Source: Methanothrix sp.
Lineage (GTDB): Archaea; Halobacteriota; Methanosarcinia; Methanotrichales; Methanotrichaceae
Length of the DNA: 64,000 nucleotides
Direction of reading: 5' to 3'
NCBI RefSeq assembly: GCF_024518575.1
Contig: NZ_JANIHG010000001.1
Coordinates: 1-64,000, forward strand
In this document: in pieces, positions 40,343-49,661 of the stretch
Layout of the letters: each line of letters opens with the position of its first letter
Position numbering within the stretch: the stretch's first letter is position 1
Translations under genes and position numbers: made by a program
The notes under the pieces: model-generated
The model's input: only the letters and a program-made list of their open reading frames with translations
Told to the model about the DNA's origin: nothing
Databases searched by the model: none

Positions 40343-40803
40343 GAGGTGAGAGAGGATGGTAACATCAACACCGGATTCGTCCAGTCTTGCCGAGGTTCTC
40401 GACAGGATCCTGGACAAGGGAATAGTCGTCGATGTCTGGGCCAGGGTATCCCTGGTTGGCATCGAGATACTGACGGTTGAGGCCAGAGTGGTGGTTGCAT
40501 CTGTCGATACGTTCCTCCACTACTCTGAGGAGATGGCGAAGATAGAGCAGGCTGCAATCGCTGCGGCCCCACCCGCATGAGGTGAGAGAGGATGGTAACA
40601 TCAACACCGGATTCGTCCAGTCTTGCCGAGGTTCTCGACAGGATCCTGGACAAGGGAATAGTCGTCGATGTCTGGGCCAGGGTATCCTTGGTTGGCATCG
40701 AGATACTGACGGTTGAGGCCAGAGTGGTGGTTGCATCTGTCGATACGTTCCTCCACTACTCTGAGGAGATGGCGAAGATAGAGCAGGCTGCAATCGCTGC
40801 GGC
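40343..40803 (+). repeat. Tandem duplication carrying gvpA1 and gvpA2
   Basis: The 225 bases 40343-40567 recur at 40579-40803 with one substitution (40452 C, 40688 T; silent Leu codon). The repeat includes the ribosome binding site and all but the last codons of gvpA. Such identity implies recent duplication or ongoing gene conversion. Confidence 0.95.
40356..40580 (+). CDS. gvpA: Gas vesicle major shell protein GvpA, copy 1
   Basis: 74 residues with the typical GvpA core: [30 protein letters not shown], then [16 protein letters not shown] and an alanine-rich C-terminus ending APPA. GvpA forms the ribbed wall of the gas-filled organelle. The ribosome binding site is GAGGTGAGAGAGG. The coding sequence is repeated almost perfectly 236 bases downstream. 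Confidence 0.97.
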
Positions 40804-40822
40804 TCCGGGAGTTCCTGCCTGA
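40592..40822 (+). CDS. gvpA: Gas vesicle major shell protein GvpA, copy 2
   Basis: 76 residues, identical to copy 1 until the C-terminus, which reads APGVPA instead of APPA. Preceded by the same GAGGTGAGAGAGG site. The two copies double the dose of the main wall protein. Its stop codon lies in the loop of a strong hairpin. Confidence 0.97.
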
Positions 40823-44601: not shown

Positions 44602-44710
44602 TCGCGCATGAAAACAGCTGCAGCCAAAACATTGTGTGGCTTTGAGACACTCAACGAGCACCGTCGATCCGTGGCTATGTGGGATATTGGTTTGCATTTT
44701 GGTGAACATT

Positions 44711-45328
44711 ATGTCGGATGGCTATGATGAGCGTTTAGACAGGATAGAGCGCAGGCTTGATGAGATCGAGAAGGCCCTTAGAGCGCTGAAAGAAGGCCCT
44801 GCCAAGGAGGGCGCTGGGAAGGAGAAAGCGGTGGAGGAGCCCTCGATAGTCAGTGGCATTGTGAGCCAGTTTATACCTGGGCTTGGCGGGATAATAAAGG
44901 CGCTTGAGGCATCATCTCCGGAGTTCAAGAAGAGGATAGCTGAGACGGACGCCGAGGTACGCCACCGAATAGAGGTCGGCTGGAGCAGCAAGCCAGTGGT
45001 CGATTACAACATCTCGGTGAGACCTCTGAGCAGCAGACCGGGTGCGCGAAGACCGCCAGCAAAACCGCCTGAGGTCAGAATACCTGGAGCTCCGAGGAAG
45101 GAGCCGATAATCGATGTAATGGATGAGGGGGACTGGATAACAATCGTCGCGGAGCTTCCAGGGGTCGATGAAGATGATCTCTCTGTCTCTGTTAGAGATG
45201 GGGTTCTGGAGATCAGGGCAGGAGAGTTCTCGAGAGAGGTGAGGCTCCCCCCTGATGCCGGTAAGATAAGCAGCAAGAGTTTCAAGAACAACATACTGCA
45301 GCTCAGGATAGAACGTATCAGAGGCTGA
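44711..45328 (+). CDS. gvpH: Gas vesicle protein GvpH (Hsp20-like)
   Basis: 205 residues from ATG 44711 after GGTGAACATT. An N-terminal coiled coil (residues 5-25), a GvpH-type middle (FIPGLGGIIKALE, PVVDYNISVRPL) and a C-terminal alpha-crystallin domain (WITIVAELPGVDEDDLSVSV, VLEIRAGEFSREVRLP, NNILQLRIER). GvpH acts as a chaperone for hydrophobic Gvp proteins. Last gene of the first sub-operon. Confidence 0.88.
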   Translation: MSDGYDERLDRIERRLDEIEKALRALKEGPAKEGAGKEKAVEEPSIVSGIVSQFIPGLGGIIKALEASSPEFKKRIAETDAEVRHRIEVGWSSKPVVDYNISVRPLSSRPGARRPPAKPPEVRIPGAPRKEPIIDVMDEGDWITIVAELPGVDEDDLSVSVRDGVLEIRAGEFSREVRLPPDAGKISSKSFKNNILQLRIERIRG

Positions 45329-45687: not shown

Positions 45688-46065
45688 ATGTCTCTAGCAT
45701 CTTTGGGAGGGGCTCTGATAGAAGAAACAAACCTCGGGCATGAGGAGCAGGAGGAGATCCTGAGCAGGTTCGTGAAGCCGAACAAGGATATTCTGATCCT
45801 CTCAATACTCAGAGAGCGTCCGATGTGCGGCTACGACCTCATCAAGGAGATCTACAAGAGGTACAATGTTCTTCTGAGTCAGGGTACTGTGTATCCCATA
45901 CTCTACTCGATGGAGGCTGAGGGCATTCTGAGAGCGGAATATAGCAGAGGCAATATGAGAACCAAGTTTTACTCGCTTACTCCAAAGGGGCAAGAGGTGA
46001 TGAGGCTAAAGATGGGTAGTATGGTCAACGCTCTGGAGTACCTACTCTCGTTTTTGAAGGAATGA
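45688..46065 (+). CDS. PadR-family transcriptional regulator
   Basis: 125 residues. The winged helix spans about 30-110: ILILSILRERPMCGYDLIKEIYKRYNVLLSQGTVYPILYSMEAEGIL and the wing TKFYSLTPKGQEV are diagnostic PadR motifs (given here as parts). The C-terminus is one dimerisation helix. Located between two gas vesicle sub-operons and coupled by ATGA to a GvpD-like ATPase, so it probably controls gvp expression. Confidence 0.88.
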   Translation: MSLASLGGALIEETNLGHEEQEEILSRFVKPNKDILILSILRERPMCGYDLIKEIYKRYNVLLSQGTVYPILYSMEAEGILRAEYSRGNMRTKFYSLTPKGQEVMRLKMGSMVNALEYLLSFLKE

Positions 46066-46739
46066 TGCTGAGAACGTGTGTTGAAGGTCTGGATCGCGTG
46101 CTGGAGACAGATCCCCCTCCTGCCTCTGTCTTGCTGGTGACCGGAGGGGAGGGCACGTTGAAGTCCAGCCTGGTGCTGGCGATGATGTCTCGATACCTCG
46201 AGTTCAGCGGGGGGCATGGTCTCTATACGAGCCTCGAGCAGACTAGGGAGAGCCATGTCAGGAACATGGAGAGCATCGGAATAAGATGCCATGAGCATCT
46301 GCACATATTCGACTACAGGGATATGCGGGTGGAGTGGAGGGAGCAAAGCCTTGACATGTTCAGGGTGACGAGGGATATCCTCGATACATACCTGGAGAAG
46401 TATCGTGATCTCATGATCTTCGCCATAGACTCTCTCAATGCTCTTTACACATTATCTCCAAAGGCGGATCTTCGCAGAAATATCTATGACTTCCTGACAG
46501 AGCTCAAGGACAGAGGCCTGACATCCATTCTGATACTAGAGACGGACGGGGGCGCGGGGAACAGTGGGGAGAAGTTTCTCTCGGATGGCATAATAGAGGT
46601 GGGCGTGATCGAGAGCACAGAGGGCGTCAAGAGGTATCTTCAGATCAGAAAGATGCGCGGAGCGAGACATCAGATGGAGAAGCACCACCTCGTGGTGAAG
46701 CCAGGCGGCCTCGAGGTTCTCGGCCCGATATACGGATGA
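46062..46739 (+). CDS. GvpD/KaiC-type RecA-fold ATPase
   Basis: 225 residues with Walker A GGEGTLKSS (about 28-36), an ELYT-like segment GLYTSLEQTRE and Walker B LMIFAIDSLNAL. It belongs to the KaiC/RadA-like family that includes GvpD, the P-loop repressor of haloarchaeal gas vesicle genes. It lacks the long C-terminal part of haloarchaeal GvpD. ATGA overlap with padR suggests the two work together as a control module. Confidence 0.75.
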   Translation: MMLRTCVEGLDRVLETDPPPASVLLVTGGEGTLKSSLVLAMMSRYLEFSGGHGLYTSLEQTRESHVRNMESIGIRCHEHLHIFDYRDMRVEWREQSLDMFRVTRDILDTYLEKYRDLMIFAIDSLNALYTLSPKADLRRNIYDFLTELKDRGLTSILILETDGGAGNSGEKFLSDGIIEVGVIESTEGVKRYLQIRKMRGARHQMEKHHLVVKPGGLEVLGPIYG

Positions 46740-46946: not shown

Positions 46947-47195
46947 TTGTTCGTCATAGATGATCTTCTTCTGAGAAGCGTCGGCATCTCCGTCCCGGGC
47001 CTCGATCTGATCTGGACGCTGGAGCAGATCAGAGGATACGCCCAGCGCGAGCTGTACAACCCTGAGCGGATCAGGAATCAGATAAAGGAGATAAGGCTGC
47101 TGTACGAGTTCGGAGAGCTGAGCCACGAGGAGTACTTGGAGAGGACTGAGCAGCTGATGCAGAGGCTCAGGATAGCGGAGGAGTTGCAGAGGTGA
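46947..47195 (+). CDS. gvpG: Gas vesicle protein GvpG
   Basis: 82 residues, helical and charged, with the GvpG pattern IRGYAQRELYNPERIRNQIKEIRLLYEFGELSHEEYLERTEQL in several parts. The start is TTG 46947 with AGGAGG eight bases upstream; the ATG at 46943 is out of frame and stops after six codons. GvpG is an accessory assembly factor. First gene of the second gvp sub-operon. Confidence 0.8.
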   Translation: MFVIDDLLLRSVGISVPGLDLIWTLEQIRGYAQRELYNPERIRNQIKEIRLLYEFGELSHEEYLERTEQLMQRLRIAEELQR

Positions 47196-47257
47196 TCCGC
47201 AGTGATGCCTGATCAATGCTCTGAGTGCACAATCAGAGCGTTCTGGAGGAGAATGTA

Positions 47258-47638
47258 ATGGTACTTCCTGAGAAGGATTCGGACCGCGGGCTGGCCGGCG
47301 CGATCGACCGGATACTCGACAAGGGGCTGGTGATAAATGCGGACATCACCGTCTCCGTGGCCGGAGTCGAGCTGCTCGGAATAAAGGTTAGGGCTGCGCT
47401 TGCATCATTCGAGACGGCTGCAAAATACGGCCTGGAGTTTCCATCCGGGATCAGCTGCACGACCGCTGCGTGGCGGGATGCGATGCTCGACAAGGAGGAG
47501 TGCCCGCAGTGCGGAAAGAAGGTGCAGCGCGAGGAGCTTCTGCACGAGGGCTGCCCGTGGTGTGGATGGACGAGCGCGCTGGCCAGGGATAGGATGCTGA
47601 AGATGCCATTCGTTTTAAAAGATGACTATGGAACCTGA
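47258..47638 (+). CDS. gvpJ: GvpJ/GvpA-type shell protein with C-terminal zinc ribbon
   Basis: 126 residues from ATG 47258 after GGAGGAGAATGTA. Residues about 10-75 are a GvpA-family wall domain (LAGAIDRILDKGLVINADITVSVAGVELL, KVRAALASFETAAKYG). After it comes a zinc ribbon: CPQCGKK then 14 residues on CPWCGW. GvpJ normally has a short acidic tail instead. As a minor wall protein it probably works at vesicle tips or nucleation; the ribbon may recruit a partner. Overlaps the next gene by 17 bases. Confidence 0.8.
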   Translation: MVLPEKDSDRGLAGAIDRILDKGLVINADITVSVAGVELLGIKVRAALASFETAAKYGLEFPSGISCTTAAWRDAMLDKEECPQCGKKVQREELLHEGCPWCGWTSALARDRMLKMPFVLKDDYGT

Positions 47639-48287
47639 GAGGTGCACAAACGCAGGCCTTGTCGATCTCCTCGACAGGATACTGGACAAGGGGGTCGTGC
47701 TGAATGCGGATGTGATCATATCAGTCGCCGGTGTGCCACTGATCGGCCTCAACCTCAGGGCTGCGCTTGCAGGTATGGACACCATGCTCAGGTACGGCAT
47801 ATGGGAGGACTGGGATGCGGCCCAGAGAGCATGGGAGACGGAGAGGCGAAAGCTGAGAGATCCCACCAGGAACCTTCTGAGTGGAGGCGAGGAGATACGC
47901 CTGAGGGCCTTCGGCACGTGCTGGCACTCCACTGGAATATACCAGGCCTGGAGGCCCGGAGAGATCTGTGTCACGAACAGACGAATTTTTGCGTTCAGAA
48001 AGGAGCCCTTCGAGATACTTTTCGCAGCATGCTACGAGGATATAGAGGGGTTTGCCGTAGAACGGGAAGAGATCATGGCAAATGGAGAGACAGAGTGCCT
48101 GCATATCCACCTGAAGGATGGCACGATGACAAAGCTCCATTCAGAAGACGTTCATTCGCTCAAAGATGCTGCCGAAAGTGAGATGTGCGCCCTTGGATTG
48201 CTCCGGGAAGGGTATGGTGGGAGGAGCCAGATCCCGAACATGAGCGATGCGGTTTGCGAGAGGGAAAGAGTTCTGTTGAGGCTCTGA
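47622..48287 (+). CDS. GvpJ/GvpM-type shell protein fused to a GRAM/PH-like domain
   Basis: 221 residues (an ATG two codons in, 47628, is also possible). Residues 8-70 are a GvpA-family wall domain ([38 protein letters not shown] in parts). Residues about 85-195 form a beta-rich domain with GEEIRLRAFG, GEICVTNRRIFAFRKEPFEILFA, and LHIHLKDG, typical of GRAM or bacterial PH-like domains, ending in a helix. Such domains bind lipids or proteins. A shell protein with this tail could tether forming vesicles to membrane or regulators. I know of no described counterpart. Confidence 0.75.
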   Translation: MTMEPERCTNAGLVDLLDRILDKGVVLNADVIISVAGVPLIGLNLRAALAGMDTMLRYGIWEDWDAAQRAWETERRKLRDPTRNLLSGGEEIRLRAFGTCWHSTGIYQAWRPGEICVTNRRIFAFRKEPFEILFAACYEDIEGFAVEREEIMANGETECLHIHLKDGTMTKLHSEDVHSLKDAAESEMCALGLLREGYGGRSQIPNMSDAVCERERVLLRL

Positions 48288-48304: not shown

Positions 48305-48625
48305 ATGTCCCTAACCATCGATGAGAACAACCTGAAGCAGGGCCTCCTCGGGCTCGTCATAGCGCTCGTCGAGGTTATAAGAGATGCCCTTCGAATACAG
48401 GCAATCAGGCGGATGGAGTCGGGACTTCTAACCGAGGATGAGATGAACAGGCTTGGGGAGGCTCTGATGGAGCTGGACATCGCGATAGAGGAGATAAAAA
48501 GAGAGCAGGGGATAACGGAATCCGTAAAGGCGGTCCGTGACGGCCTGGATGAGATCGTGGACGATCTCCTGGACAGAATGATCAATCCGGAGAGGTGGAG
48601 GGAGGAGGTGGAGCATGAACGATGA
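48305..48625 (+). CDS. gvpK: Gas vesicle protein GvpK
   Basis: 106 residues from ATG 48305, with the family core LKQGLLGLVIALVEVIRDALRIQAIRRMESG and LTEDEMNRLGEALMEL. Helical accessory protein required for gas vesicle formation. The start follows GGAG; overlaps the next gene by 11 bases. Confidence 0.92.
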   Translation: MSLTIDENNLKQGLLGLVIALVEVIRDALRIQAIRRMESGLLTEDEMNRLGEALMELDIAIEEIKREQGITESVKAVRDGLDEIVDDLLDRMINPERWREEVEHER

Positions 48626-49661
48626 GCTCAGAGAGGCGATCGCTGGTATTGTCAGGGAGGAGATCAGGTCGGTAGGGGAGGAGATGGCTTCTGTGATATC
48701 AGAGGTCGTTCGATCCGAGCTCATGCCTGCACTCAGGGCTGCGATAAGAGAGGCGATAGCGAGAGAGCTGAAACTCTATGCATCCGCATCTAGCGTCGAA
48801 TCGGGTGATATCTCTAAGGGCAGCGATCTGTCACTTCCAAATGGCGTAGGGCGATCAGCCACAGGATCAGAGCCGGAGGCAGCTGAGATCGCGAGGCCTG
48901 CGGATGGGACAGGGCTTTACCTCTACGGGCTTGCAGATGCGAGCACAGCTACGAGCCTTGGCAGAATAGGAATCGAGGGGTGTGAGGTATACACAATCCC
49001 GCATGAGGGCATATCGGCGATAGTTCATATCTGCCCATTAGAGCCATACAAGAGCGATGATGATGAGACTGTAAAGAGATGGGTTAAAACGCACCAGCAG
49101 GTCTTAGACCTCGCAGCCGATAGGTTCGGAACTGTGCTGCCATTCGGCTTCGACACGATAATAGCGCCGAAGGACACCCTCACAGCTGAGGAGGTCCTGA
49201 AGAGATGGATCTCGGATGAGCTCGATGATATAAGGAGGAAGATGGATGGGATACGGGGCAAGAGGGAGTACGGAATTCAGATATTCTACGATCCAGCCGT
49301 CTTCAGCGAGAGGATCGAGAAGGAGAGCGAGGAGGTGCGGAGAATAAAGGAGGAGATAGCGTCCAAACCACCCGGGATCGCATACATGTACAGGCAGAAG
49401 CTCGAGACCGCTGTTAGAAGGAAGATGGATGAGCTGATGGGCGCGTACTTCAAGGATTTTTACGACATGATCAGCGGGAAGGTCGATGATATCAAGGTAG
49501 AGAAGGTGAAGAAGACCGATGGGGAGATGGTCATGATGATGAACCTCTCTGTGCTCGCCAGCGACGAGAAGGCCCTTGGCCAGGTCCTTGATGAGATAGA
49601 TGGAGAGCCGGGGATCTCGGTTCGCTTCACAGGGCCGTGGCAGCCATATTCTTTCGTCTGA
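48615..49661 (+). CDS. gvpL: Gas vesicle protein GvpL (GvpF/L family) with N-terminal coiled coil
   Basis: 348 residues. The first 55 form a charged helix (REAIAGIVREEIRSVGEEM, ELMPALRAAIREAIARE), then a Ser/Gly linker, then the GvpF/L fold from about 97 (GLYLYGLADA, GISAIVHICPLE, VLPFGFDTII) and the family C-terminus GPWQPYSFV. GvpL interacts with many Gvp proteins and may nucleate assembly. The helical extension is longer than usual. Last gvp gene. Confidence 0.92.
   Translation: MNDELREAIAGIVREEIRSVGEEMASVISEVVRSELMPALRAAIREAIARELKLYASASSVESGDISKGSDLSLPNGVGRSATGSEPEAAEIARPADGTGLYLYGLADASTATSLGRIGIEGCEVYTIPHEGISAIVHICPLEPYKSDDDETVKRWVKTHQQVLDLAADRFGTVLPFGFDTIIAPKDTLTAEEVLKRWISDELDDIRRKMDGIRGKREYGIQIFYDPAVFSERIEKESEEVRRIKEEIASKPPGIAYMYRQKLETAVRRKMDELMGAYFKDFYDMISGKVDDIKVEKVKKTDGEMVMMMNLSVLASDEKALGQVLDEIDGEPGISVRFTGPWQPYSFV

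Follow-up and report, generated by a model that had tools for sequence, protein, structure and literature searches.

The window analysed here is a stretch of 64,000 nucleotides at the start of a contig from Methanothrix sp. (NZ_JANIHG010000001.1). It carries a gas vesicle cluster that reads, in order, two gvpA, a gene for a coiled repeat protein, gvpN (assigned from its own sequence and a match in genome G046), gvpO, gvpF, an Hsp20-type gvpH, genes for a PadR regulator and a KaiC-like ATPase, gvpG, gvpJ, gvpM, gvpK and gvpF/L (Table 1). The gvpM gene, hereafter gvpM-PH, sits inside this cluster in the company of gvpJ, gvpK and gvpF/L. It is a single uninterrupted, stop-free frame of 221 amino acids, likely starting at ATG 47622 or at ATG 47628; in its homologues the start mostly matches the position of the latter. 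The preceding gvpJ likely starts at ATG 47258.

From gene order, we take Mthe_0071 to be the gvpM of G046. In Methanothrix thermoacetophila this gene is annotated merely as GvpA/gvpM, and the counterpart of the window's cluster, Mthe_0069-0073, is expressed, at a lower level during interspecies electron transfer (PMC10470525). The coiled, internally repeated protein encoded after gvpA is possibly an analogue of GvpC; methanogen gas vesicle clusters are said to be devoid of gvpC (PMC9501494). The PadR-type regulator and the KaiC/ArlH-like ATPase that follows it, a pair conserved within the cluster of G046 (L110), possibly replace the haloarchaeal regulators GvpD and GvpE. Near the cluster, a Cdc48/VAT-like AAA ATPase may be linked to gas vesicles, since its homologues adjoin gvp genes in loci L011, L014 and L105.

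Table 1. Features of the gas vesicle cluster and of the GvpM-PH protein (positions in the window)
Feature	Position	Strand	Basis or remark
Two gvpA	40356-40580, 40592-40822	+	family-model matches
Coiled, internally repeated protein, 302 aa	40855-41763	+	
gvpH-like, C-terminal Hsp20 domain; candidate partner	44636-45328	+	PF17886/PF00011/GvpH
PadR-type regulator, then KaiC/ArlH-like ATPase	45688-46739	+	
gvpG	46947-47195	+	PF05120
GvpJ with C-terminal zinc ribbon (CPQCG...CPWCGW); overlaps gvpM start	47225-47638	+	halo_gas_GvpJ, 90.3 bits
gvpM-PH gene	47622-48287	+	221 codons plus stop
GvpM-type wall domain, residues 1-76	47622-47849	+	PF00741; halo_gas_GvpM; RAALA 46-50, RYGI 57-60
Predicted PH-superfamily domain, residues 88-190	47883-48191	+	AlphaFold2; PDB Foldseek; profile A3
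Variable C-terminal extension, residues 191-221	48192-48284	+	low model confidence; unconserved
gvpK, inferred start at ATG 48305	48305-48625	+	PF05121
gvpF/L	48615-49661	+	PF06386, 200.3 bits
Cdc48/VAT-like AAA ATPase	51963-54182	-	

A wall domain joined to a predicted PH fold

Judging from family models and motifs, the first 76 residues of the protein form a wall domain that belongs to the GvpA family and is of the GvpM type. The Gas_vesicle model (PF00741) matches residues 13-50 with 60.6 bits for a cut-off of 25. The top NCBIfam model is halo_gas_GvpM, named for haloarchaeal proteins, which covers residues 3-69 with 100.9 bits, under its curated cut-off of 109, as compared with 51.8 bits for GvpJ and 39.7 for GvpA. 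The RAALA and RYGI stretches are conservative variants of RAAIA and EYGL, known as motifs of GvpJ and GvpM (PMC8716928).

The tail that follows, to which a helical linker would join the GvpM part, was modelled with AlphaFold2 as a single chain, from an alignment of 25 GvpM proteins. The model has seven strands (92-104, 107-118, 121-126, 131-137, 141-151, 155-164 and 169-174) capped by a C-terminal helix (177-190), in the strand order of PH domains, with block pLDDT values of about 76-95 within this domain, the wall part being modelled poorly. The 50 entries that Foldseek listed from the PDB belong to PH-domain proteins, with E values between about 1e-5 and 4e-4 and a probability of 1.00, among them 4tyz (TM by target 0.74), the PH domain of TAPP1 (TM by target 0.70), GRK2, Vps36 GLUE, MTMR2 PH-GRAM, hSac2 and the ArhGAP9 PH domain; some less obvious entries presumably hold a PH-like domain as well. 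By sequence, the window protein stays below every Pfam cut-off, reaching 12.4 bits for bPH_3 (cut-off 23), and a profile of the tail (A3) finds chance-level matches only among PDB sequences; the same profile gives 1.5e-38 for the window tail, itself a row of A3. Homologues fare better. A Methanophagales protein (L005) clears GRAM (25.1 for 23.6) and Vps36 (24.8 for 24.1) nearly equally, and the GvpM of L105 clears Vps36 (25.5 for 24.1), with bPH_3 just under its cut-off (22.8 for 23). Because of the fold matches and of these homologues above the GRAM and Vps36 cut-offs, we place the tail, as predicted, in the PH superfamily at large rather than in a single subfamily such as GRAM, Vps36 GLUE or bPH_3. 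A chance beta-rich tail is ruled out by the fold match together with an internal repeat, a second PH copy detected by profile in some relatives.

The initial annotation had proposed a GvpA-family wall domain continued in frame by a GRAM- or PH-like beta domain, and this is borne out, with the wall domain now specified as GvpM-type; the PH fold returned by prediction and PDB search contradicts the converse, a tail devoid of any GRAM/PH fold. Nor does a stop separate the two parts: stop-free homologous fusions exist in numerous genomes independent of one another, one of which is a one-contig genome from the same genus, and this rules out a sequencing artefact or read-through. The fusion is real, and it is a conserved feature of the lineage, not a peculiarity of the window protein.

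Distribution and variants of the tail

Matches were found in 21 of the 50 genomes of the window's family, where GvpM-tail frames span about 187 to 362 amino acids without stops (an extra copy in G001 is short), and the genome of the window itself has a single match to the tail profile. In a sample of 394 genomes of the phylum, the profile matches 19, with 18 intact GvpM fusions and one broken fragment (G076); the intact tail is restricted in this sample to GvpM. A search for GvpM in the same genomes found 54 carriers, a third of which (18) have the PH tail. The 36 others comprise 34 presumed haloarchaea, that is, members of families mostly above the halo_gas_GvpM cut-off, none of which has a PH tail in this sample, and two genomes of a Methanophagales-like family (f9), so that 18 of about 20 non-haloarchaeal carriers have the tail. 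Altogether, the fusion extends across the Methanothrix family, Methanosarcina-type, Methanophagales and other methanogen-related genomes, plus one MAG of the Chloroflexota phylum, the names Methanosarcina-type and Methanophagales-like being drawn from kinship and from sequence identity to named loci. The GvpM tails of a Bacillota locus (L011) and of an 'Acetobacteraceae' MAG (L014) look alike by eye; they are not counted as PH tails because neither matches the tail profile. The cluster of L014 resembles that of L011, and its label looks doubtful. A tail search of the Bacillota phylum, run without a positive control, returned no match. Within the genus, the tail has dN/dS ratios of about 0.15-0.27 for computable pairs and is under purifying selection; it diverges faster than the wall part, with 59-62% identity to congeners versus 79-88%. 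Residues 95, 101, 110, 121, 127, 134 and 171 of the domain are conserved. Searches of a full-text library of open-licence papers found none that links gas vesicle proteins with PH, GRAM or zinc ribbon; a PH tail on methanogen GvpM is apparently unreported, as far as open-licence papers go, where absence is no proof.

Some relatives have elaborated the tail. Two PH domains follow GvpM in L005, L020, L052, L053 and L055, with a terminal zinc ribbon after the second one in all but L055. A profile from which these second copies and the proteins carrying them had been left out detects them with 28.1 and 17.4 bits, compared with at most 5.2 among 1000 shuffles. In a predicted model of L005, both copies have seven strands plus a helix, and the closest structures include the double-PH histone chaperones Rtt106, Spt16, Pob3 and SSRP1, and also BBS5. 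The ribbon is of the type that ends GvpJ, homologous copies being carried by relatives' GvpJ and by some GvpM-PH-PH proteins. Because of this resemblance to the terminal ribbon of GvpJ in the window and its relatives, it may have been transferred between the two minor wall proteins. The GvpJ ribbon (CPQCGKK...GCPWCGW) is kept in methanogens and in some bacterial GvpJ (L011, L014, L010), whereas Halobacterium GvpJ has no cysteine. Locus L105 presents yet another arrangement. Next to its GvpM and beside Hsp70, the gas vesicle cluster encodes a protein of 338 amino acids (L105:2519-3532, reverse strand) that combines a PH-like domain, matched by A3 with E 6e-11, with a C-terminal Hsp20 domain; the Hsp70 appears split across two frames, and a DnaJ-type zinc protein is encoded nearby.

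In four Methanophagales-like GvpM genes the PH tail is absent. The GvpM of L006 retains a stump, VEGEEVVQKEKM, similar to the beginning of the second PH domain, and is followed by an ArsA-type ATPase, which suggests that the tail was lost secondarily. An ArsA-type ATPase (PF02374) directly follows the tail-less GvpM of L006, L007, L008 and L009 (also L106-L109), and gvp-linked ArsA has been described earlier (PMC2963123). A mutual exclusivity of tail and ArsA in Methanophagales, as four tail-less clusters with ArsA and three tailed ones without it would have it, was dropped because G137 (L111) carries both. The contig L007, from a 'Nitrosotalea' MAG, has a Methanophagales-like gvp cluster, and its label, too, looks doubtful.

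A putative docking platform and its relatives

GvpM is a minor wall protein, thought to be a seeding factor located at vesicle tips. The literature on haloarchaea assigns it to early assembly; the C-terminus of the Halobacterium protein binds GvpF, GvpH, GvpJ and GvpL, of which GvpH maintains GvpM in soluble form and prevents its aggregation (PMC6107691, PMC8716928). In Bacillus, GvpS, the counterpart of GvpM, is with GvpJ and GvpK a proposed seeding factor, GvpS and GvpJ being proposed at the tips (PMC11445434). We see about an even chance that GvpM-PH is a protein-docking platform on the seeding or tip protein, recruiting chaperone or assembly Gvps. As we infer it, the hydrophobic GvpM part would insert into the nascent shell or tip, and the PH domain would remain in the cytosol as a docking module, where it would recruit or position the Hsp20-type GvpH, GvpF/L, GvpK and GvpJ and prevent aggregation of the hydrophobic part; in some relatives, two PH domains and a zinc ribbon would do the same job. 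We favour docking because of the partners of the GvpM C-terminus, the recurrence of the domain on the Hsp20 protein of L105 (a single case), the likeness to tandem-PH proteins and the non-basic character of the domain. Bacterial PHb structures have likewise been interpreted as protein-binding, not lipid-binding (PMC2817789). Against docking, most of the haloarchaeal GvpM C-terminus is dispensable (PMC6107691), and the PH domain is missing from haloarchaeal and some Methanophagales GvpM, so that gas vesicles in general do not need it.

A tail binding lipid or protein, which would tether or sense vesicles, had been the initial proposal. Phosphoinositides are frequent ligands of PH and GRAM folds, the structural matches listed include MTMR2 PH-GRAM, TAPP1 and ArhGAP9 PH, and at least 88% of sequences conserve the basic columns 95, 127 and 171, all of which would suit membrane anchoring of the seeding complex by a domain that recognises the head group of an anionic archaeal lipid. 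Typical membrane-binding PH domains, however, are strongly basic, whereas net charge in this family runs from -8 to +7, mostly acidic or neutral (-5 in the window), and one conserved basic column falls in the general T-x-x-R motif of the fold. Published gas vesicle shells, moreover, are made of protein only, free of lipid (PMC9501494). With a mostly acidic domain, few conserved basic columns and circumstantial evidence in favour of protein partners, the lipid half of the proposal is unsupported and membrane anchoring looks quite unlikely, even if a domain with conserved basic positions 95, 121, 127 and 171 could bind some ligand; the protein-binding half is the best remaining option.

A folded tail might also keep an aggregation-prone GvpM soluble without any specific binding, as GvpM-GFP aggregates alone and GvpH solubilises GvpM (PMC6107691), and as the tail diverges faster than the wall part and is absent in some lineages. 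Yet positions are conserved across diverse lineages, one fold is retained rather than arbitrary tails, dN/dS is well below 1 and the same domain is found on another protein of the L105 cluster, which leaves this reading unlikely. Bacterial PHb domains form cyclic C5 or C12 rings (PMC2817789), and a role in nucleation and at the tip has been proposed for GvpM/GvpS (PMC11445434, PMC9994262); oligomerising PH tails could then dictate how the first turn at the vesicle tip is shaped, but close relatives differ in having either one or two PH domains, and we regard such a template as improbable. We give as little credit to a nucleation device in which a PH ring or platform would template the first turn and gather GvpH, GvpK and GvpF/L, making vesicle initiation distinct in methanogens.

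How gas vesicles are seeded is not yet understood (PMC9994262, PMC11445434). A soluble, foldable domain that nature has attached to a proposed seeding or tip protein provides a ready bait with which to search for partners and a means of finding GvpM in vesicles as they form, and the fusion suggests that GvpM tolerates a large natural C-terminal cargo, of use in engineering.

The closest known systems are haloarchaeal GvpM and Bacillus GvpS, which share with the window protein a homologous wall domain, RAAxA and YG motifs, and G, J, K and F/L as neighbours. Halobacterium GvpM, however, has 84 amino acids and a short helix, with no PH domain (PMC9501494), whereas the window protein has an additional folded domain, about 100 residues long. 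As to the tail, GRAM (PF02893), Vps36 GLUE (PF11605) and bPH_3 (PF14470) have the same seven strands plus helix and are connected to it by PDB fold matches; homologues pass the GRAM and Vps36 cut-offs, while the window domain is under all Pfam cut-offs. Bacterial PHb (PF08000, PMC2817789) likewise has the PH fold in prokaryotes and is believed to act in contacts between proteins, but the window tail has no PF08000 sequence match and continues a gas vesicle wall protein. Finally, the tandem-PH scaffolds and chaperones BBS5, Rtt106, Spt16 and CheF are resembled by the two-PH relative L005 in the fold search; unlike them, the window protein bears a single PH domain and is without a link to histones or chemotaxis.
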